From the NCBI RefSeq assembly GCF_007990545.2, contig NZ_AP019829.2, positions 1,054,001-1,118,000 on the forward strand: DNA of 64,000 bases. Direction: 5' to 3'. The stretch comes from Leptotrichia wadei (GTDB lineage: Bacteria > Fusobacteriota > Fusobacteriia > Fusobacteriales > Leptotrichiaceae). Numbering within the stretch: position 1 is the first letter of the stretch; each line of letters begins with the position of its first letter. Shown in pieces: positions 4,994-55,029 of this stretch. The position numbers were made by a program, and so were the translations under genes. Below the pieces are notes generated by a model that had not been told where the DNA came from, did no database searches, and saw only the letters and a list, made by a program, of their open reading frames with translations.

Positions 4994-5144
4994 TTTATTG
5001 ACTTTAGTCAGTTGAGTATGCAAAGCGTGCGAAACATAAAACCATCCGTTATGTGGGTGCGGAAACGTAAGTTTGCAACAAAATACATCTTCCATTATAA
5101 TAGAGCTGTTCAAGCACTATTTTAATGAAAGAAAGGTGTTTAAT

Positions 5145-5450
5145 ATGGCTAAATAGCCTGTCTCATACTAAATGGATGTGTAAGTATCATATAGTATTTA
5201 CACCTTACACCTAAGTATAGATGAAAAATTACATATAGTCAATACAGAAAAAATGTGGAAAAAATTTTAAGAAGATTATATGAATATAAAGGAGTTAAAA
5301 TAATTGAAGGAACATCTGATGAAAGATCACGTGAGTGTGCTGGTAAGCATACCACCGAAAATAAGTGTATTAAGTTTTATGGGATATCTGAATAGGAAAA
5401 GTGCATTGATGATGTTTGATTTTATTTGAAACAAATATTTTGAATATAAA
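5145..5450 (+). pseudogene. tnpA: IS200-type transposase TnpA, multiply broken
   Basis: Recognisable blocks in successive frames: NSLSHTKWMCKYHIVFTP (from 5152), then KYR-KITYSQYRKNVEKILR, then HLMKDHVSVLVSIPPKIS and FMGYLNRKSALMMFD. Four lesions are visible: a frameshift right after the start, a 7-bp tandem duplication (TTACACC twice, near 5210), a TGA where an Arg codon is expected, and a frameshift near 5315. The catalytic HUH motif, HVHM in active members, reads HVSV here, so the second catalytic His is also lost. The C-terminal part with the nucleophilic Tyr is missing or unrecognisable. Confidence 0.85.
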
Positions 5451-5472
5451 ATAATTAAATTGTGCAGTACCA

Positions 5473-5512: not shown

Positions 5513-6059
5513 TATTAAGCGAAAAAAATTTTGGTTGTATAAACCTCTAAAATATATGTAGTAAAATAACTTATATGATATTTAAAGATTTTTGTTATGA
5601 TTAATAAAGAAAATTAACAACAAAATTTTTAAAACTTTAATTTGGAATAAAAACATTAATGACATCAAGGATTTAATCTCAATAGATTATTCAAACGATG
5701 CTTGAAGTTTGAGTATTTAATAGTTTTTATGACTGAGATAGTTTGGATTTAGTTTAAGTAGTGCTAATCAATTTTCTTTTTATTTAATACTATTTATTTT
5801 TGAAGTTTTATGTGTTAAAATAATAATAACATTTTAAGTTTGAATATTTAAATAAACTAATAAACAAAATAGGCAATTGTAGAAGTAATAATATAAAAAC
5901 TCAATAAATATAATATTTTTATTTAAAATATCAAAATTTTACATTAAAAAATACTGGAGAAATGGTAAGAAGTGGAACTGTAAAAAATATTGTAATTAGC
6001 AGAAATTTAAAACTTTTATAAATGGCTATAATAATTAAAAGTAAGTGAAGGAGATACAA

Positions 6060-6409
6060 TTGTATAAAATAAAGATTAATAACATGAAATTTCATTCATA
6101 TATAGGTGTTTATGAAGAAAAAAAAAAATTGGACAGAATATTGAAATTGATTTAATTATATCACTTTCAAAAGAAATTATTAAGAATGATGATATAAATA
6201 ACATTTTAAGTTATGGAGACTGTTATAGAAAAATTGAAAAAATTGTGAAGGTAAGTAATGTTGATTTGTTAGAAACGCTGGCTTTGGAGATTATAAGGGA
6301 AATAAAAAAATTAAATGGAAAAATCGAAAATGTGCAGGTAAATATTAGAAAATTGGCAGTTCCGATTGATGGGATTTTTGATAGTGTTGAAATTCAGATA
6401 AATGATTAG
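6060..6409 (+). pseudogene. folB: folB, dihydroneopterin aldolase, frameshifted in an A11 run
   Basis: AAGGAG (6048-6053) precedes a TTG start at 6060. The frame gives MYKIKINNMKFHSYIGVYEE, then runs into a stop; the next frame continues KIGQNIEIDLIISLSKEI to VQVNIRKLAVPIDGIFDSVE and a TAG at 6407. Together this is a full-length FolB of about 116 residues, which in folate synthesis converts dihydroneopterin to hydroxymethyl-dihydropterin. The break is a missing base within eleven A residues at 6118-6128. It could be a real mutation, a sequencing error, or be corrected by polymerase slippage on the A-run. It heads the folB-folK-folP cluster. Confidence 0.85.
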
Positions 6410-6423
6410 GCGGGTATGGAAAA

Positions 6424-6923
6424 ATGGAAAAAAATAAAGTTTATTTAAGTTTAGGTGGAAATATTGGAGATAGGAAAGGATATATCCAAAAAGCTATTAA
6501 AATGATTGGAAAAATTAATGGAATTAAAATATTGGGAAAGTCTGGGTTATATGATATGAAACTACTCTAGTTGGATATTTAGAGCAGAATTTGTTTCTAA
6601 ATGTAGTAATTAAAATTGAAACTAAATTTTCAGAAAGAGAAATTTTGAAAATTATAAATAAAATTGAGGCAGAACTAGATAGGAAACGTGAAATTAGATG
6701 GGGACCAAGAACAATTGATATTGACATTTTACTTTTTTCAAATAAAAAAATAGATGAAATAGATTTAATAATTCCCCATAAAGAAATGCTAAATCGACTT
6801 TTTGTATTGATTCCATTAATTGAGATTTACGATGGAGATTATTTTGAAAAAGAAGTAATTGTTAAAAGAATAGATGAGTTATTTAAAATAGAAGACCAGA
6901 AAATACAAAAGATAAATGATTAA
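6424..6923 (+). pseudogene. folK: folK, HPPK, broken by a 5-bp tandem duplication
   Basis: The ATG at 6424 opens VYLSLGGNIGDRKGYI, the typical FolK N-terminus, and ends at a TAG after LYDMKLL. Shifted, the frame continues ETTLVGYLEQNLFLN, then RWGPRTIDIDILLF and the LIIPHKEM motif to a stop at 6923, so both halves of 6-hydroxymethyl-dihydropterin pyrophosphokinase are present. The break is an exact tandem duplication TATGA TATGA at 6550-6559; removing one copy restores the reading frame. The ATP- and pterin-binding residues lie in the separated halves, so the product should be inactive. The downstream half keeps an internal ATG at 6591. Confidence 0.88.
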
Positions 6924-7252
6924 TTTTAAAAAGAATATGAATTATATATAAATAATTATTTTATTGAATAATAGATAGTGTGTTAATAAATATAATTTTC
7001 ATATATAATTCTTATATTTTTAAAATTTTATAATTTTATTATCGGACGTATTTTTTAATAATTAATTAACTAATTAATTTAATAACAATTTCAGAATTTT
7101 AAATTATATGTTTAAAATTTAGTAAAAAGATGACAACAGTTTTTATTTTCTTAATTATCTAAAAGGTATTAAATTTTTATAAATAGTTGTAAAAATGCTA
7201 AGTTAAAAAGTAAAAGATAAAAAAATATGTACAAAGAAAGGAAAATGTTAAG
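6924..7252. other. Intergenic stretch between folK and folP
   Basis: Very AT-rich, with stops in all frames. It contains the motif ATTATCGGACGTA at 7038-7050, also found at 1504-1516 and resembling the ends of the inverted-repeat element at 44348-44463. AAAGGA at 7236-7241 serves the ATG at 7253. Confidence 0.6.
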
Positions 7253-7426
7253 ATGCTTAAAATTAATGAAATAAAAAATAGGAATCCTAAAAATATTGTT
7301 ATTGAATTTGATGGAGAAAAAAATGAATTGAATAAATTTGGAAATTTTCTGGAAGATAAAAATGTATTTTCTTTTAATCAAGATAAAAAGATTGTGGGAA
7401 TTTTTAAATATTCTGAGTTAAAGTAG
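7253..7426 (+). pseudogene. folP: N-terminal extension of folP, cut off by an in-frame TAG
   Basis: The ATG at 7253 follows AAAGGA and opens a 57-codon frame ending ...KIVGIFKYSELK and TAG (7424-7426). The same frame continues without shift as SVEILKKENNFEFENG into the DHPS barrel. Clostridial-type FolP proteins carry an N-terminal extension of about this kind before the barrel, and KIVGIFKYSEL-K-SVEILKK reads smoothly across the stop. I therefore read 7253-8335 as one original folP gene with a premature amber codon, a one-base change from a Lys, Gln or Glu codon. Alternatively it is an independent small gene. Confidence 0.65.
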
Positions 7427-7438
7427 TCGGTTGAAATC

Positions 7439-8335
7439 TTGAAAAAGGAAAATAATTTTGAGTTTGAAAATGGGATTAATAAATTGAAAGATATTTTGCA
7501 AAGGGACAGGCTGATTTGGAAGGGGAATAATTTTGAGTTTGATTTGACAACTGAGTCGGTTATTTATTCGATTTTGAATATTACTCCTGATTCATTTTAT
7601 GATGGAGGGAGAAATTCGAGTGTAGATAAAGTTTTAAAGAGAATTGAGGCAGATATTAAAAATGGAGCTAAGATATTTGAGTTTGGAGGAAAATCATCAA
7701 AGCCTAATTTTGATGATATTTCGGCACAGGAAGAATGGAATCGGATTGAAAAATATATTGAAGCTGTAAAAAAGGAGTTTCCAGATGTTGTGCTGGCTTT
7801 GGACAGTGATACTGAAGAAGTTATTGAAAAAGGACTGGATGCTGGAATTGATATTATTAATGATTTTAATGGATTTGCTTCGGAAGGGAAACTAAAACTT
7901 GTTGAAAAATATAAGCCTGCATTAGTTGTTATGAATAATGGAAGATTTGATGAAATTCCAAATTTGAAGAATTATTTGGAGAGTTATTTTGATGAAAGAG
8001 TGAAGGCGATTTTGGGAACTGGGATTGAAAGGGAAAAAATTTCGATAGATCCAGGAGTTGGATATTCTTCAAATAATAGTATGAATACGCCTGAAGATAT
8101 GGAAAGAATTAAATCGGTAAAATATTTGCGGGATATGAAGTTACCAATAATGGTTGCAATTTCAAGAAAAAGTTTTAATGAAAAGATATTTCAATTGACA
8201 TTGGAAGAAAGATTGATGGGAACATTGATATTTGAAAGTTTGATGGTACAAGATGGAGGAAGGATTTTGAGAGTTCATGATGTGAAGGAAACTAGGGATA
8301 TTTTGAATATGCTGGAAGTTTATAATAAGTTTTAA
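7439..8335 (+). CDS. folP: Dihydropteroate synthase, catalytic barrel
   Basis: Joins pterin pyrophosphate to p-aminobenzoate in folate synthesis. Family motifs: SILNITPDSFYDGG, FGGKSSKP (usually GGESTRP, so Glu, Thr and Arg are replaced by Lys, Ser and Lys), LALDSDT, DIINDFNG, ISIDPGVGYSS, AISRKSF and LRVHDVKE. Most substrate-binding positions are kept, but the second loop is atypical. The only start within this frame is a TTG at 7439 with no ribosome site, and the frame is continuous with the small frame upstream apart from a TAG at 7424, so this barrel may be translated poorly or not at all. folB and folK just upstream are both broken. Confidence 0.8.
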   Translation: MKKENNFEFENGINKLKDILQRDRLIWKGNNFEFDLTTESVIYSILNITPDSFYDGGRNSSVDKVLKRIEADIKNGAKIFEFGGKSSKPNFDDISAQEEWNRIEKYIEAVKKEFPDVVLALDSDTEEVIEKGLDAGIDIINDFNGFASEGKLKLVEKYKPALVVMNNGRFDEIPNLKNYLESYFDERVKAILGTGIEREKISIDPGVGYSSNNSMNTPEDMERIKSVKYLRDMKLPIMVAISRKSFNEKIFQLTLEERLMGTLIFESLMVQDGGRILRVHDVKETRDILNMLEVYNKF

Positions 8336-8753
8336 TAATTAAAATTGAAAAATTGAAACATTTTATTTTGTATGATATAATGAAGAAGCATAAATTTAAA
8401 AATAGAAAAATATTGGATTTATTTGATTTGGTAACTATTAAATAATAAATTTTTTTATTTTAAAATTTTATTATATTTATTAAGGATATTAAGCTTTTTA
8501 ATAAATTATGTATTTAAAATTTAATAAAATAAAAATTTTGAATATAGAATAGTCATAATTGAAAAAAGTTGATTTAAAAAGCAAAAGTTATAAAAATTGA
8601 ATAATATATAATATTAGTAGTAACAAGGAGTTTTGATATCTTATATTTTACCCAAAAATGGAAAAAAATAAAAAATTAACAGTATTATATTTTATGGTTT
8701 TAGACTTTTGTAAATAAATATAATAAAAAACTAAAAATAGGAGGAATGTAAAA
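8336..8753. other. Intergenic stretch before the M48 protease gene
   Basis: 418 bp, almost only A and T, with no ORF, hairpin with a convincing T-run, or RNA gene that I can see. The downstream gene has a strong AGGAGG at 8741-8746. Confidence 0.5.
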
Positions 8754-9548
8754 ATGAAGCAATATTCAAAAATATTATTTTTAATTACAGCAGTGACAAT
8801 GATTTCAAGTTGTACAGTAGCACCACTTACAGGGAGAAGACAATTAAAATTAGTAAGTGATGAAAGTGTTGCGGAAAAATCAGTTTCTACATATAGAGAA
8901 TTTATTCAACAAGCTAATGCTAAAGGACTTTTGGCAAATAATACAGCTGATGGACAACGACTAAGAAGAATTGGCGGAAGAATATCAGTGGCAGTTGAAA
9001 AATATTTGAATGAAAATGGGATGTCTAAAAAAATATCTGGTTTACAGTGGGAATTTAATTTGATAAAAACGAAAGAAATAAATGCGTTTGCTATGCCAGG
9101 CGGGAAAATTGCTTTTTATACTGGAATAATGCCAATTTTAAATAGTGACTCTGGTATTGCCTTTGTAATGGGACATGAAATTGGGCATGTTATCGGAGGA
9201 CATCATGCAGAAGCATCAAGTAATAATGCTCTTGCAGGGATTGCAGCAGGTGTAACAGATGCACTAACAGGTGGAAATATTATATCTTCTTTAGTTTCAA
9301 GTGGACTTTCGATTACTCTTTTAAAATTTAATAGAACCCAGGAATATGAAGCGGATAAATATGGAATGATATTTATGGCAATGGCTGGGTATAATCCATC
9401 AGAAGCAATTACAGCTCTTGAAAGAATGGATTCGATAGGTGCACGTCAAGGTGCAGAAATTTTGTCAACACATCCATCTGGAAAAAATCGAATTGAAGCA
9501 GCTAGAAAATTTTTACCTGAAGCAATGAAATATTATAATGCAAAATAG
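8754..9548 (+). CDS. M48-family metalloprotease, lipoprotein
   Basis: A 264-residue zinc protease exported as a lipoprotein: residues 1-19 are a signal peptide ending in the lipobox ISSC, with Cys20 as lipidation site. The zinc motif is HEIGH at residues 141-145, with the third ligand Glu199 in EYEADKYG. Short single-domain M48 lipoproteins of this kind (LoiP/YggG-like) act in envelope quality control on the periplasmic face. An AGGAGG precedes the start at good distance. The dus gene follows after 23 bases and could be co-transcribed, although the functions are unrelated. Confidence 0.92.
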   Translation: MKQYSKILFLITAVTMISSCTVAPLTGRRQLKLVSDESVAEKSVSTYREFIQQANAKGLLANNTADGQRLRRIGGRISVAVEKYLNENGMSKKISGLQWEFNLIKTKEINAFAMPGGKIAFYTGIMPILNSDSGIAFVMGHEIGHVIGGHHAEASSNNALAGIAAGVTDALTGGNIISSLVSSGLSITLLKFNRTQEYEADKYGMIFMAMAGYNPSEAITALERMDSIGARQGAEILSTHPSGKNRIEAARKFLPEAMKYYNAK

Positions 9549-9571
9549 ATAATTAAAAGAAAAATAAAATT

Positions 9572-10579
9572 ATGAAAGGAAATGCAGTGGGAAATAAGGT
9601 AAGTATAGCTCCAATGGTTGATAGAACAGATAGAAATTTTAGAAATTTTGTTAGAATGATAAATAAGGATGTTTTGTTGTATACAGAAATGATAACGGCA
9701 CTGGCAATTCTTAATGGAGATTTGGAATACATTTTGGGATTTGATGAAGTAGAACATCCAATTGTGCTGCAAATTGCAGCAACTAATCCAAAAGAGGCTT
9801 ATCAGGCTGTAAAAATTGCTGAGAAATATGCTTATGATGAAATTAATCTAAATGTTGGATGTCCATCGGATAGAATTTCGGGAAATATGATGGGTGCTTA
9901 TCTTATGGCATTTCCAGAAGAAGTGGTAAATATTGTGAAGGCAATGAAAGATGCAACAAATAAGCCGATTTCTATAAAACATAGAATTGGAATTGATGGG
10001 AAAAATATATTGCCTAATACTTTTGATAGGACATTATTTGATAAGTATGAGGATATGATAAATTTTATTCATATTACTGAAAAAGCTGGAGTAAATAAAT
10101 ATATTATTCATGCTCGAATAGCGATATTAGCTGGGCTTGATCCAAAACAAAACAGAAGCATACCGCCACTTAGATATGATGAGATTTATCGAGCAAAAAA
10201 AGAAAATCCTAATTTGCATATAGAAATTAATGGTGGAATAAAAACAGTTAAGGAAATTGATGAGCATCTAAAACACGTGGATTCTGTAATGCTAGGTCGT
10301 GAAATTTATGACAATCCTATGATTTTGACTGAATTTGGAAAATATTATGGAAGTGAAAAAAAAATAAATATTACACGTAAAGAAATTATTGAAAAGATGA
10401 TTCATTATGTTGAAAATATGGAAAAGCAGAATCTTCGTCCACATTTATTTTTAATGCACACTCACGGATTATTTCATAATGTACGTGGCAGTAAGGCATG
10501 GAAAAGAGCAATTAATGATCCAAAGGCAGATTCTGGAACATTGAGGAAATTATTGAAAGAAATGGAAAATTTAAGATAA
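9572..10579 (+). CDS. dusA: tRNA-dihydrouridine synthase, DusA type
   Basis: FMN-dependent enzyme that reduces uridine in the tRNA D-loop. The product (335 residues, normal for DusA) has SIAPMVDRTDRNFR, LYTEMIT, LQIAATNP, LNVGCPSDR (catalytic Cys), KHRIGID, YIIHARIAIL and INGGI followed by VMLGREIYDNP. The DRTDR and NVGCPSDR wording is that of the DusA rather than DusB branch. The ATG at 9572 has a weak ribosome site; a GTG at 9587, preceded by AAAGGAA, would give a product beginning closer to the usual DusA start and may be the true initiation codon. A hairpin terminator follows. Confidence 0.92.
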   Translation: MKGNAVGNKVSIAPMVDRTDRNFRNFVRMINKDVLLYTEMITALAILNGDLEYILGFDEVEHPIVLQIAATNPKEAYQAVKIAEKYAYDEINLNVGCPSDRISGNMMGAYLMAFPEEVVNIVKAMKDATNKPISIKHRIGIDGKNILPNTFDRTLFDKYEDMINFIHITEKAGVNKYIIHARIAILAGLDPKQNRSIPPLRYDEIYRAKKENPNLHIEINGGIKTVKEIDEHLKHVDSVMLGREIYDNPMILTEFGKYYGSEKKINITRKEIIEKMIHYVENMEKQNLRPHLFLMHTHGLFHNVRGSKAWKRAINDPKADSGTLRKLLKEMENLR

Positions 10580-10616
10580 AGTTATTATTTTTTTAAAATA
10601 ATAAATTTTAAATTAT

Positions 10617-10653
10617 TAATCGTTGTTGTAAAAGACGGCGATTTTTTTATTAT
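10617..10653 (+). terminator. Rho-independent terminator of dusA
   Basis: AATCGTTGT and ACGGCGATT pair (two G-U pairs) around a short loop, followed by seven T. Confidence 0.75.
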
Positions 10654-10924
10654 TTTCAAATAATTAAAATAAACCTTCGCTTTTTAAACGAGGAATAGTA
10701 TAAACAGTAGTTTTCCTATAATTTTTATAAAATCTGATATGAAGTAATAATAATTATAGAATCAAAATATTATAAATACAAATATAAATAAAATATTTTT
10801 TTTGTGGACTTTTTATTATAATTGTGTAATAATTTAATGAAAACAAATTATGAATTTTTTCACAAATAAATTTAATTTAAAAAAGAAATTTTTATAAAGA
10901 TAAAAAAATTAGTAGAAAGGAGAT

Positions 10925-10944
10925 GTGATAAGTTATCTTATCAC
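10925..10944 (+). promoter_or_regulatory. Perfect hairpin between Shine-Dalgarno and start of the FNT gene
   Basis: GTGATAAG, loop TTAT, CTTATCAC: an 8-bp perfect inverted repeat. AAAGGAG ends at 10922, three bases before it, and the ATG of the FNT gene is at 10955. With the hairpin folded, the ribosome site is 12 bases from the start; unfolded it is 32 bases away. It could be a translational control element or a DNA operator. Confidence 0.6.
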
Positions 10945-10954
10945 GATATGAAAA

Positions 10955-11716
10955 ATGAGAAATAATCAAACTTTGGAACAAGTGTCAAATGTTGCAGAAA
11001 GTAAGGTTCAGTTGCTAAAAAATTCTAAGGGGAAATATTTTTTATCGTCATTTATGGCTGGGATGTTTATTGAATTGGGGATTTTATTGACGTTTACGGT
11101 TGGAGGAGTTAGCAGTGGATTGCCAACTAATAAAATTCTTATGGGAGTCAGTTTTGGGATAGCACTTAGTCTTGTAGTTGTGTTTGGAACGGAGCTTTTT
11201 ACGGGAAATAATATGATTGGAGTAACAGGGATGCTAAATAAGGCAATAACTTTTAAAGATATGATCTTTATGTGGATAGCGGCTTATATTGGAAATATTG
11301 TTGGATCAGTTGTACTTGCCATTATATATGTTTTTTCAAATTCTGCTTCAAAGTCTGTTGTAGATTTTATTGTGAAAGTTTCAAAGGCTAAAGTTGCAGC
11401 TCTACCGCAAGAATTGTTTTTTAAAGGAATTTTATGTAATATTTTAGTATGTCTTGCTGTTTTGGCTGGAATAAAATTAAAGGAAGAAACTGCTAGGCTG
11501 ATAATGGTTTTTTGGTGTCTTTTTGCATTTATCACTGCTGGATTTGAGCATAGTGTTGCTAATATGACGCTTTTAATGATGGGAATTATGTATAAAGGAA
11601 TTACTTTGAATGGATATTTCTATAACTTGCTGTTTGTAACTTTGGGAAATATTGTTGGTGGAGGCTTTATTGGGTATGCCTGTTATTATTTGGGGAAAAA
11701 GGAAATAAAAAAATAA
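10955..11716 (+). CDS. Formate/nitrite transporter family channel, probably hydrosulfide channel
   Basis: A 253-residue polytopic membrane protein of the FNT family with about six helices. Family features: the GMFIELGILL first helix, ELFTGNNM (the usual LFTGN pore motif), and GFEHSVANM (usual GFEHSVANM/pore His). FNT channels carry formate, nitrite, lactate or hydrosulfide. In Clostridioides difficile an FNT member beside asrABC was shown to conduct HS-, and the same neighbourhood here makes export of sulfide, the product of AsrABC, the likely role. The start is set by MRNNQ at 10955; an ATG at 10948 is out of frame and stops after five codons. Confidence 0.9.
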   Translation: MRNNQTLEQVSNVAESKVQLLKNSKGKYFLSSFMAGMFIELGILLTFTVGGVSSGLPTNKILMGVSFGIALSLVVVFGTELFTGNNMIGVTGMLNKAITFKDMIFMWIAAYIGNIVGSVVLAIIYVFSNSASKSVVDFIVKVSKAKVAALPQELFFKGILCNILVCLAVLAGIKLKEETARLIMVFWCLFAFITAGFEHSVANMTLLMMGIMYKGITLNGYFYNLLFVTLGNIVGGGFIGYACYYLGKKEIKK

Positions 11717-11791
11717 GAATAAAGAATTGAAATAATTGGAGAATATAACAAGGGGCCTAATCCTTTGTTTATGAAAAATTTAGGAGGAGTA

Positions 11792-12856
11792 ATGAAAATT
11801 AGCTTAAATCGTGAAAATTTTAATTCAGCACTTGAAAAGCTGAAGAGAGAGTATAAAATATATGCCCCAATTGAAATACCATTTCGTGGGACATTTTCAG
11901 ATACTTCTGTAATTAGATATTCTGAAATTGACAAGATTGAAGAGATATGTTTTGATAAAAAATCTCATTTTTCAGCAAAGGAAGTAATGCTGCCAATAAC
12001 ACAGACAATGTTTTACTTTACAGAAGATGGATGTACAATGCCTAAAGAGCAGAATGAAAAGTATCTTATTTTTCTTAGAAGCTGTGATTTACATTCCGTA
12101 AAGAGAGTCGATGAAGTCTATTTAAATAACAAATTTTTGGATATTTACTATAAAAGAGTAAGGGATAAAGTAAAATTTGTAGTATTTGGATGTCCAAATT
12201 CGTTTGAAAACTGTTTTTGTGTGGATATGAAGACTAATAAGACTGATGAATATAATATTGGGATAAAAGTTACAGATGATAAAGTATTTGCTGATATAAG
12301 AGATGATGAATTAAAGGCATATTTTGATGAAGTTATTTCTGAAAATAAGGAAAATAGTAAAGTAAATGAAAATGTAGAATTTGAAATGGAATTTGTGGAA
12401 GATAATGAAATTCATGTAGATATTCCAGATAACATTGAACTTTCCGATATTATAAATTTAGATTTATGGCGTGAATATGATAGCCGTTGTATTGCCTGTG
12501 GAAAATGTAATTTCGTTTGTCCAACTTGTACTTGTACGACAACGCAAGATGTTTTTTACAGTGAAAATGACAATAATGGAGAGCGAAGAAGAGTGTGGGC
12601 TTCGTGCCATGTAAATGGGTTTACTGATATGGCTGGTGGACATTCGTTTAGACAAAGACATGGAGATAGAATGAGATTTAAAGTTATGCATAAAATTTCT
12701 GACTTTAAAAAGAGATTTGGCTATCAAATGTGTACGGGATGTGGACGATGTGATGATGCTTGTCCTGAATATATTTCATTTTCAAATTGTATAAACAAAC
12801 TAAGTGCGGAATTAAAAAGAATTTCAGCTGAAAAAAGAGGTGAAAAATCAGAATGA
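11792..12856 (+). CDS. asrA: Anaerobic sulfite reductase subunit A
   Basis: Iron-sulfur subunit of the dissimilatory/assimilatory anaerobic sulfite reductase. The 354-residue product has an N-terminal region rich in conserved Cys (LRSCDLHSVKRVDE, FGCPNSFENCFCVD) and two ferredoxin-like clusters, CIACGKCNFVCPTCTC and CTGCGRCDDACPEYISF, near the C-terminus. It passes electrons toward the siroheme subunit. AGGAGG at 11782-11787 favours the ATG at 11792 over one at 11765. Its TGA overlaps the ATG of asrB (ATGA), so translation is coupled. Confidence 0.95.
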   Translation: MKISLNRENFNSALEKLKREYKIYAPIEIPFRGTFSDTSVIRYSEIDKIEEICFDKKSHFSAKEVMLPITQTMFYFTEDGCTMPKEQNEKYLIFLRSCDLHSVKRVDEVYLNNKFLDIYYKRVRDKVKFVVFGCPNSFENCFCVDMKTNKTDEYNIGIKVTDDKVFADIRDDELKAYFDEVISENKENSKVNENVEFEMEFVEDNEIHVDIPDNIELSDIINLDLWREYDSRCIACGKCNFVCPTCTCTTTQDVFYSENDNNGERRRVWASCHVNGFTDMAGGHSFRQRHGDRMRFKVMHKISDFKKRFGYQMCTGCGRCDDACPEYISFSNCINKLSAELKRISAEKRGEKSE

Positions 12857-45210: not shown

Positions 45211-45230
45211 TTAAAATAAAAGGGGTGAAA

Positions 45231-48200
45231 ATGAGTATTTTAGCAAAAAAATCTGAGTCAAGTAATTTAATAAATACAGAAGAAAAAAATGATAATTTTT
45301 TAGAAATAACTGAATACAAGGAAAATTTAGAATTTGAAGTTCTGGAAACTTTTTCAGATAAAATTTCTGATTTTATTGGAAAAATGATTATCAAAAAGTT
45401 ATTGAATTTACTGAAAAACAATTGTATTTGTTAAATCAGGCATTTACAGATGAATCAGAAAAAATAAAGATTCAAAATACTGATTTTCACTTTGAGTTAC
45501 CGTTAAAACGAAAAAATAAAGATATAATTGGCAATATAAATGAATTAATTATAAACGAAAAGGCTAAATTTCGTAATTTTTTTATTTATTTAAAACAGGA
45601 ATTGCTAAACTGTAAAAAATTCTATTTTATTGTAAGTTTTATAAGATATTCAGGGATTCAGTTGTTAATAAGCACTTTGGATGAACTTGAAAAACAAGGG
45701 ATTCAAGGAGAAATTATAACATCTGTTTATCTAAATATTACGGATTCAAAGGCATTGCGAAAACTTTTGTCGTATGAGAACATAAAAGTTAAGGTTTATA
45801 ATAATTCTAGCGAGAGTTTTCACACAAAAGCATATTTATTTGAAAAAGAAAAATATCATAGTGTTGTAATCGGCTCGTCTAATATTAGTCAAAGTGCCTT
45901 GTATTCGGCAGAAGAATGGAATGTGAAGCTCACAGATAGCAGTTTTTTTAATATTTATGGAAAATCGCTGAATCAATTTGAGAAGTTGTGGCATAGTAAT
46001 GAAGCAATAGAATTGACACAAGATTTTATTGATGAATATGAAAAATATAAAAAATCTATAAATGCACAAAATACTTTTGATTATAGGAAAACCAAAATTG
46101 AACAAGAAAATAAATTTGTACCAAATAGCATGCAAAAAAGAGTTTTGCAAAAACTAAAAGAAACTAGAATAAACGGCAATAAAAAGGGCCTTGTAATTTC
46201 TGCAACTGGTACAGGAAAAACCTATCTTGCCGCAATGGATATAAAACAGTTTTTTGAAATTAAGTCTAATGCTAAAAATAAATTATTTGAAATAAATGAT
46301 AAAAAATCAAAAACTTCAAACATAAAATTTTTATTCATTGCTCATCGTGAAGAGTTGCTAGAAAATGCAATAAATGTTTTTTCAAAAATCCTTAAAATTG
46401 ACAAAAATGAATTTGGAAGAATTTATGGCGGCTTAAAGGAAATTGATAAAAATATAATTTTTGCTTCGATTCAGTCTTTAAGAAATTGTTATAATGAATT
46501 TAAGCCTAGTTTTTTTGATTACGTTATAGTTGATGAATTTCATCATTCAATGTCAGACAGTTATTTAAAAACATTATCATATTTTAATTCAAAATTTCTA
46601 TTAGGATTAACAGCGACTCCAAAACGTATGGATGGCAAAGATATTCTTTCACTTTGTGATTATAATGTTGTGGATGAAATTGGAATAAAAGAGGCTTTGG
46701 AAGAGGACTTGATTGTGCCTTTTCATTATTTTGGAGTAAATGATTATATGATTAATTATGATAATATTCCTTACAAAAATGGGAAATACAATGAAAAGAT
46801 ATTACTAGAAAATTTATTGTTGAACACACGTACCGATTATATTGTTGAAAAAATCAATAAATTTGGCTTTGATGGTGATGAACTAAGTGCTGTTGCATTT
46901 TGTCAGAATATTGAACATGCTTTTTTTATGAAAGAAGAATTTTCAAAAAAAGGTTATAAATCAGCTGTGATTACAGCAAATACAAGTTCAAACGAAAGAT
47001 CAGAAATTTTAGAAAAATTTAAAAACAAAAAAATTGAAATTTTATGCGTAGTAGATATTTTAAACGAAGGAATTGATATTCCAACAATTAATTTACTGCT
47101 ATTTTTACGTCCCACAATGTCGTCAACAATTTTTATACAGCAAATTGGGAGAGGATTAAGAAAGGCTAAAAATAAGGATTTTGTAACAATTATTGATTTT
47201 ATTGGAAATCACAAGAAAGATTATTTGCTGATAAATTATTTTTCAAATGAAGTTGATAACAAAGATACGCTGTTTACTAAAAAAGAAAAAATTATTAATG
47301 AAGTTAAAAATCAATTTTCAAATATTCCAAAATCTTGTTATGTGGAGCTAGATAGAATTTGCCAAAATCGTATTATTGAAAAAATAGAAAAGATCAATTT
47401 TAGTTCAAAAAATATTTTAAAGGAAATGTATTTAGATTATAAAGCTGAAATTGGAAAATCTGAAGATGAGTTTTTGCAAGTAAGAGATTTTGATACAAAT
47501 ATCGAGTTATTTCAGGAATTATGCCTAAAAATGCATTCATTTTATAACGCTCAATTACAATTTGAAGATTCTAAAATTTTTAAAAAGGAAAATGAGAAAA
47601 ATCCATTAAATAAAACTGAAATTGAATTTTTAGAATATTTAGAAAAGAAATTAACACTTGTTGAGCCGTTTACCTTTTTGATTATTGATTATTTGGTAAC
47701 TGGAAAAGAGTATATTAATAACAATGATTTATTAAACAAATATAAGGAATTTTTTGATATCAAAGGAAATTTTGAAAAATATTACCTTTTGAATAGGATA
47801 TTTGAGGAATTGATGGAAGACGAGATTTTAGAAAAAACTCTTTATGGCTATAAATTTTCTAAAAAATATAAAATTATTTTCAAATGAAAAATTAAATAAA
47901 AAAAATACTATGAAATCTAACCAAAAAGTAAATAAATCAAATTTTATAAATCGATTGAAACAATTAATTTATCTAGGTTTGAATGAATTTAAAAGAAATG
48001 ATTTAGATGAATTTAACGAAAATATTCTCATTTCGTATAAAGAATATAAGCGGGTGGAATTACAAATATTACTTGATTCTAAGGTACCAAAAGGCAGCTG
48101 GAGAGCTGGTTATGCGAATACTGAGAAAGATATTTGCTTGTTTGCGACAATTGATAAAACGCACATTTTTCAAGAGAATTTAAAGTATGACAATTCATTA

Positions 48201-48473
48201 TTTGCAGATGATATTATTCAGTGGATAAGTCAACCAAAAACTTCTCATAATTCAAGTGTTGGACAAATGTTTATTCATCATAAAGAAAAAGGCTTCAAAG
48301 TTCATATTTTTATACGAAAATATGCTTTTATGAATGGAAATAAGACAAACCCTTTTATCTATCTAGGAAATGCAAAGTATTACAGCAGTCAAGGCGATAA
48401 ACCAATGAAAATATTATGGAAATTGGATAAAAAAATTCCTCAAAAGTTAATTTATGAATTGTATAAATTTTAA
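45231..48473 (+). pseudogene. PLD nuclease-SF2 helicase-DUF3427 protein, two frameshifts
   Basis: Three frames join into one protein of about 1080 residues. The first (45231-45434) reads MSILAKKSESSNL and breaks in an A-run near 45380; the second (to 47887) holds a PLD-like domain (HTKAYLFEKEKY, VIGSSNIS), a superfamily 2 helicase with ISATGTGKTYLAA, VDEFHHS, GLTATPKRMDG and QQIGRGLRKAKN; a second shift near 47870 moves into the third frame (RLKQLIYLGLNEFK, SWRAGYANTEKD, YLGNAKYYSSQGDKPMKI), the DUF3427 C-terminal domain. Such fused proteins occur in nucleic-acid defence or repair contexts. The upstream exonuclease gene is probably its partner. Confidence 0.88.
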
Positions 48474-54725: not shown

Positions 54726-55029
54726 CAATTTTCATTCCTTTTTTATACTAAACTCCATTTAAACAATGAATATGTTATAAATCTTTTTACCTGCCTGATA
54801 ATATTTATTTTCAGATAATTAAGATAAATTTTCACTTTTTAAACAGATAATAATATTATTATTTTCTCTCTCTTTAAAAATTAAGTTTATGCTTATTAGA
54901 TTTTATCACAATTTCAATTTAATGTATAGTAAAAAAAGAAAAATGCTAAAAGTTAATAATATAAATAAAAAAAATAGTCATAAACTTAATAAAAATCTAT
55001 GACTATAATTTAATTTTAATTTTTTTGTT
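54726..55029. other. Intergenic region upstream of ribF
   Basis: 304 bp between the ribF start and the bactofilin gene end. It contains the bactofilin terminator at its right end and AT-rich sequence that should hold the ribF promoter; a segment near 54814-54853 resembles one near 10659-10696 (shared CTTTTTAAAC). Confidence 0.5.
54974..55006 (-). terminator. Terminator of the bactofilin gene
   Basis: ATAGTCATA and TATGACTAT form a perfect 9-bp stem; on the minus strand it is followed by a run of eight T. Confidence 0.85.

Follow-up and report, generated by a model that had tools for sequence, protein, structure and literature searches.

The locus analysed here raises the question of whether Leptotrichia wadei, which lives in the mouth and has also been recovered from blood cultures, still makes its own folate. 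It lies in a stretch of 64,000 nucleotides (hereafter, the window) corresponding to positions 1,054,001-1,118,000 of the 2,305,216-bp chromosome of strain JCM16777, the single genome from which L. wadei was read. The assembly contains one second contig of 32 kb, and one plasmid is given in the publication of this genome (AP019829; PMC7029190). It was produced by MinION, Canu and nanopolish, followed by MiSeq/Pilon (PMC6914741). An initial sequence-only reading had described a three-gene folB-folK-folP cluster in which every gene is damaged, downstream of a dead IS200-type element, and had taken this to suggest relaxed selection on de novo folate synthesis. We compared the locus with those of 12 Leptotrichia congeners, including JMUB3936, L. 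shahii JCM16776, L. hofstadii JCM16775, L. hongkongensis JMUB5056 and L. buccalis C-1013-b; gene identities in the congener operons were assigned by NCBIfam and Pfam searches. As detailed below, the de novo folate operon of JCM16777 (folB-folK-folE-folC-folP) is very probably undergoing natural decay, with folE and the operon folC deleted, the rest broken and no replacements, and the cell would salvage folate instead.

The features referred to are the following (window coordinates, strand):

about 5100-5460, + strand: relic of an IS200/IS605-type TnpA (Y1 transposase), matching PF01797 with E 1.9e-6 on one fragment and 0.006 on another
6060..6409, + strand: folB pseudogene (dihydroneopterin aldolase), matching PF02152 from profile position 18 only, in a shifted frame; 1-base gap relative to JMUB3936
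6424..6923, + strand: folK pseudogene (HPPK), matching PF01288 from profile position 34, with one stop; 5-bp insertion relative to JMUB3936
7057..7104, no strand: deletion junction, at which about 2.68 kb of JMUB3936 (folE and operon folC) are absent in L. wadei
7253..8335, + strand: folP (dihydropteroate synthase) with a nonsense TAG at codon 58; CAG to TAG relative to JMUB3936

The operon in the sister species and other congeners

In eight congeners, the gene order is folB-folK-folE-folC-folP, with variable genes after folE in some, and the operon is intact in these eight of 12, save for a one-base folC indel in one. The intact relatives for which the sequence-only reading had proposed a search therefore exist, and they include JMUB3936, the sister species, where all five genes are intact. 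In a tree of MetH and FolC, L. wadei and JMUB3936 are sisters (100%) and L. shahii comes next (80%; unrooted Newick). The intact operons (those of JMUB3936, L. buccalis, L. hofstadii and others) have their gene order and site in common with L. wadei, the downstream side being common with JMUB3936, to which L. wadei is 83-86% identical in nucleotides over aligned blocks. Measured against these operons, L. wadei has folE and folC deleted and its remaining three genes broken. Thus, the lesions first described are all there, but the cluster is not a three-gene one: it originally held five genes.

The remaining four of the 12 congeners, L. shahii among them, have no folB, folK, folP or folE. In L. 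shahii JCM16776, both flanks of the L. wadei operon are recognisable and the pathway is lost as in L. wadei, but the operon is entirely gone: three unrelated genes stand between the flanks, with no fol remnant. Because JMUB3936, the sister of L. wadei, is intact, the losses in L. wadei and L. shahii are independent of each other. Across the family, no folB and no folK match was found in 14 of the 23 other Leptotrichiaceae genomes searched. For the other three pathway-less congeners, which form one clade, and for most other genera of the family, the sequences would fit either a loss or a later gain by core Leptotrichia equally well.

Two further observations concern the interior of the operon. 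Firstly, the folE-folC interval of intact congeners contains species-variable ORFs, making it an insertion site. Secondly, an intergenic repeat of ~120 bp with an inverted-repeat fold is dispersed in many copies through Leptotrichia genomes; one copy lies between folE and folC of JMUB3936 (reverse-complement 7937-8063) and others are found in the window at about 10648-10704 and 54742-54858. The repeat has no Rfam match in the window.

Deletion of folE and operon folC

When the window was aligned by blastn to the reverse-complemented JMUB3936 locus, 6027-7056 matched 5854-6924 and 7105-9598 matched 9606-12012, leaving folK and folP nearly adjacent in L. wadei. A profile search for folE elsewhere, as the sequence-only reading had advised, found no match anywhere in the L. 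wadei genome. The sole full-length folC lies away from the operon, at 449,960-451,225; every congener, operon-less ones included, has a copy of this second folC gene. At the level of sequence, the deletion, which is not visible from the window alone, is the strongest evidence for the predicted loss of the pathway. The set of genes that would make up a functional de novo operon, i.e. intact folE, folB, folK, folP and a DHFS-type folC, is not present.

Lesions in folB, folK and folP

The three remaining genes each carry the lesion originally reported. In folB, which opens with a TTG start at 6060, the A-run at 6118-6128 is one base shorter than in JMUB3936, and the frame that matches the profile is shifted from there on (6119-6400). 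folB is most likely inactivated, judging from this frame. As evidence, the single-base indel is weak when taken alone, and a sequencing or assembly error could have occurred there, because one-base indels are also found in the DHFR and folC genes of L. hongkongensis JMUB5056, sequenced by the same group. In folK (ATG at 6424), the frame is shifted by a tandem duplication of TATGA (6550-6559), so that translation stops at the TAG at 6568-6570. In folP (ATG at 7253), the codon 58 stop is the TAG at 7424-7426, ahead of the barrel, and lies in a cluster of four substitutions within nine bases. Profile searches found no other folB, folK or folP copy in the genome, so the broken copies are the only ones, and the full-length copies that would have argued against a defect are lacking. 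The second pterin-binding domain in the genome is part of a 1180-aa MetH-type protein.

Beyond the folP stop, the barrel frame (7439-8335; 298 aa) remains open and scores 239 bits against the DHPS model TIGR01496 (cut-off 162.6). We therefore considered whether the pathway is partially retained, with translation of folP initiating internally to give a functional DHPS barrel that draws on external pterin. The open frame and its score above the cut-off speak for this, but the in-frame starts ahead of the barrel are TTG only, with no clear ribosome-binding site seen. Moreover, with folB, folK and folE broken or absent, no 6-hydroxymethyl-dihydropterin pyrophosphate is made, and operon folC is deleted. 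Partial retention is thus very unlikely; initiation at a TTG codon might still give a barrel protein, but the cell itself would supply no substrate for it.

Upstream of folB, the element described as a dead IS200-type one is indeed present. The TnpA relic is split over frames and so contains no intact Y1 transposase, and a stretch 80.7% similar occurs in one congener locus (L096).

Decay probably genuine and recent

Could the lesions be sequencing or assembly errors, the frames being intact in the living strain? The assembly is nanopore-based with MiSeq/Pilon polishing, the JMUB5056 genome of the same series has an indel-split DHFR and folC, and the folB lesion is exactly of the homopolymer-indel kind. 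By contrast, homopolymer errors do not typically produce a deletion of 2.7 kb, a tandem duplication of 5 bp or a stop codon amid clustered substitutions. To these we can add the rate of lesions in a sample of 320 kb of the L. wadei assembly, in which the orthologues that L. wadei and JMUB3936 have in common were judged by eye: about 3 of 103 other orthologues are clearly broken as against all three fol remnants (Fisher p 1e-4, the fol genes not being mutually independent). Taken together, error is a highly improbable explanation and natural decay of the operon is strongly preferred. Two of the roughly three broken non-fol orthologues are accessory genes of restriction/helicase type.

Three damaged loci were noted individually. 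A PLD/ResIII/DUF3427 helicase gene of defence or restriction type (window 45225-48470) has an early frameshift relative to JMUB3936. Just beyond the window, a 772-aa PLD-domain gene (chromosome 1119302-1121582) has lost 8 bp and acquired a nonsense codon when compared with JMUB3936. In L. hongkongensis JMUB5056, the single-base indels that split DHFR (contig 668500-670000) and operon folC are either sequencing errors or real lesions.

For the fol genes, the polarised nonsynonymous:synonymous counts are 31:33 (L. wadei) and 17:38 (JMUB3936). The ratio was dropped as a sign of relaxed fol selection, since the control genes MetH and FolC2 are shifted likewise (21:42 in L. wadei, 9:41 in JMUB3936). 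Because the excess of substitutions is not specific to fol, the inactivation is probably recent on this sequence evidence. The suggestion of relaxed selection on de novo synthesis is thus supported as regards loss of the pathway (folE and folC deleted, no second copies, DHFR and FolC2 kept) but not as a long-standing relaxation, the control genes behaving in the same way.

A recent loss also bears on how far the result extends. The loss may be specific to the type strain, arising for example during laboratory passage, rather than a trait of the species; this is compatible with decay of the operon and is favoured by the substitution patterns and by the reading of one L. wadei genome. However, natural erosion accounts better for a deletion combined with at least two independent mutations, and for the absence of this operon from other congeners that have lost it, and we regard a strain-specific loss as rather unlikely.

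Retained genes and the salvage genotype

L. wadei retains an intact DHFR (699365-699847; 173 aa), the second FolC and the folate-using MetH. Salvage-dependent bacteria typically lack FolK and FolP and have DHFR and FolC (PMC1971073). The L. wadei genotype is of this kind, known from lactobacilli and comparable auxotrophs: FolK and FolP are broken without a second copy, and DHFR and one FolC are kept. Unlike in the lactobacilli-type genotype, what is left of the biosynthetic operon can still be read and no FolT importer is recognised. The retained FolC would have FPGS rather than DHFS activity. With FolK and FolP lost and DHFR, FolC and MetH kept, uptake of folate would be required, and L. wadei is probably dependent on folate from outside, as judged from its gene content. 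The pABA branch is uninformative here, since one chorismate-binding enzyme is present in nearly all congeners regardless of the operon, operon-less ones included.

We propose that folate, or reduced forms of it, enters the cell from outside, to be reduced by DHFR and glutamylated by the second FolC. Once uptake sufficed, the operon would have lost its selective value.

Search for a folate importer

In streptococci, import of folate is known to provide a bypass of sulfamethoxazole, and ECF S-components of the ThfT/FolT type import folates, including reduced ones (PMC9712650). Such S-components would supply the uptake needed in L. wadei, yet none is recognised there. The sequence-only reading had called for a search for a folate transporter, and no importer was recognised: two ECF S-components were found, but the FolT model TIGR04518 stayed below its cut-off in 40 of 40 genomes and likewise in the controls, so that no positive control stood above it and a FolT-like protein may have been missed. 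The THF riboswitch (RF01831) gave no match, in a search that was also without a positive control. Neither S-component had a match among solved structures by sequence search.

Both candidates were rejected as FolT. The S-component at 454792-455268, near the second folC, has T and A subunits of its own; its closest family is CD3073, whose cut-off it does not reach, and in L. buccalis it is not a neighbour of folC. The one at 784447 is riboflavin-type. Both L. wadei and L. shahii have, near the second folC, a CD3073-like S-component accompanied by dedicated T and A subunits, and an S-component match lies near folC in JMUB3936 too.

We tentatively suggest, as a possibility that we hold with less than even confidence, that L. 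wadei and the pathway-less Leptotrichiaceae import folate by a transporter other than a recognised FolT, and that this importer allowed repeated loss of the operon, at least twice independently in core Leptotrichia. Published work yielded nothing specific on folate or sulfonamides in Leptotrichia; one survey does no more than mention the genus as an exception where it describes Fusobacteria as vitamin prototrophs.

Discussion

The kind of event described here is already known: it is ordinary vitamin-pathway erosion in a host-associated bacterium, caught at its midpoint. With its sister species intact and a congener retaining nothing, L. wadei represents an intermediate state, which makes the order of loss events open to study. 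Because dihydropteroate synthase would be without home-made substrate, sulfonamides are expected to have little specific effect, while inhibition of DHFR of the trimethoprim type should still matter. The prediction is therefore of a folate requirement and sulfonamide indifference in an oral species also found in blood cultures. Perhaps more significantly, loss of the pathway points to an as-yet unrecognised folate importer in Leptotrichiaceae, which is a more interesting question than the erosion itself.
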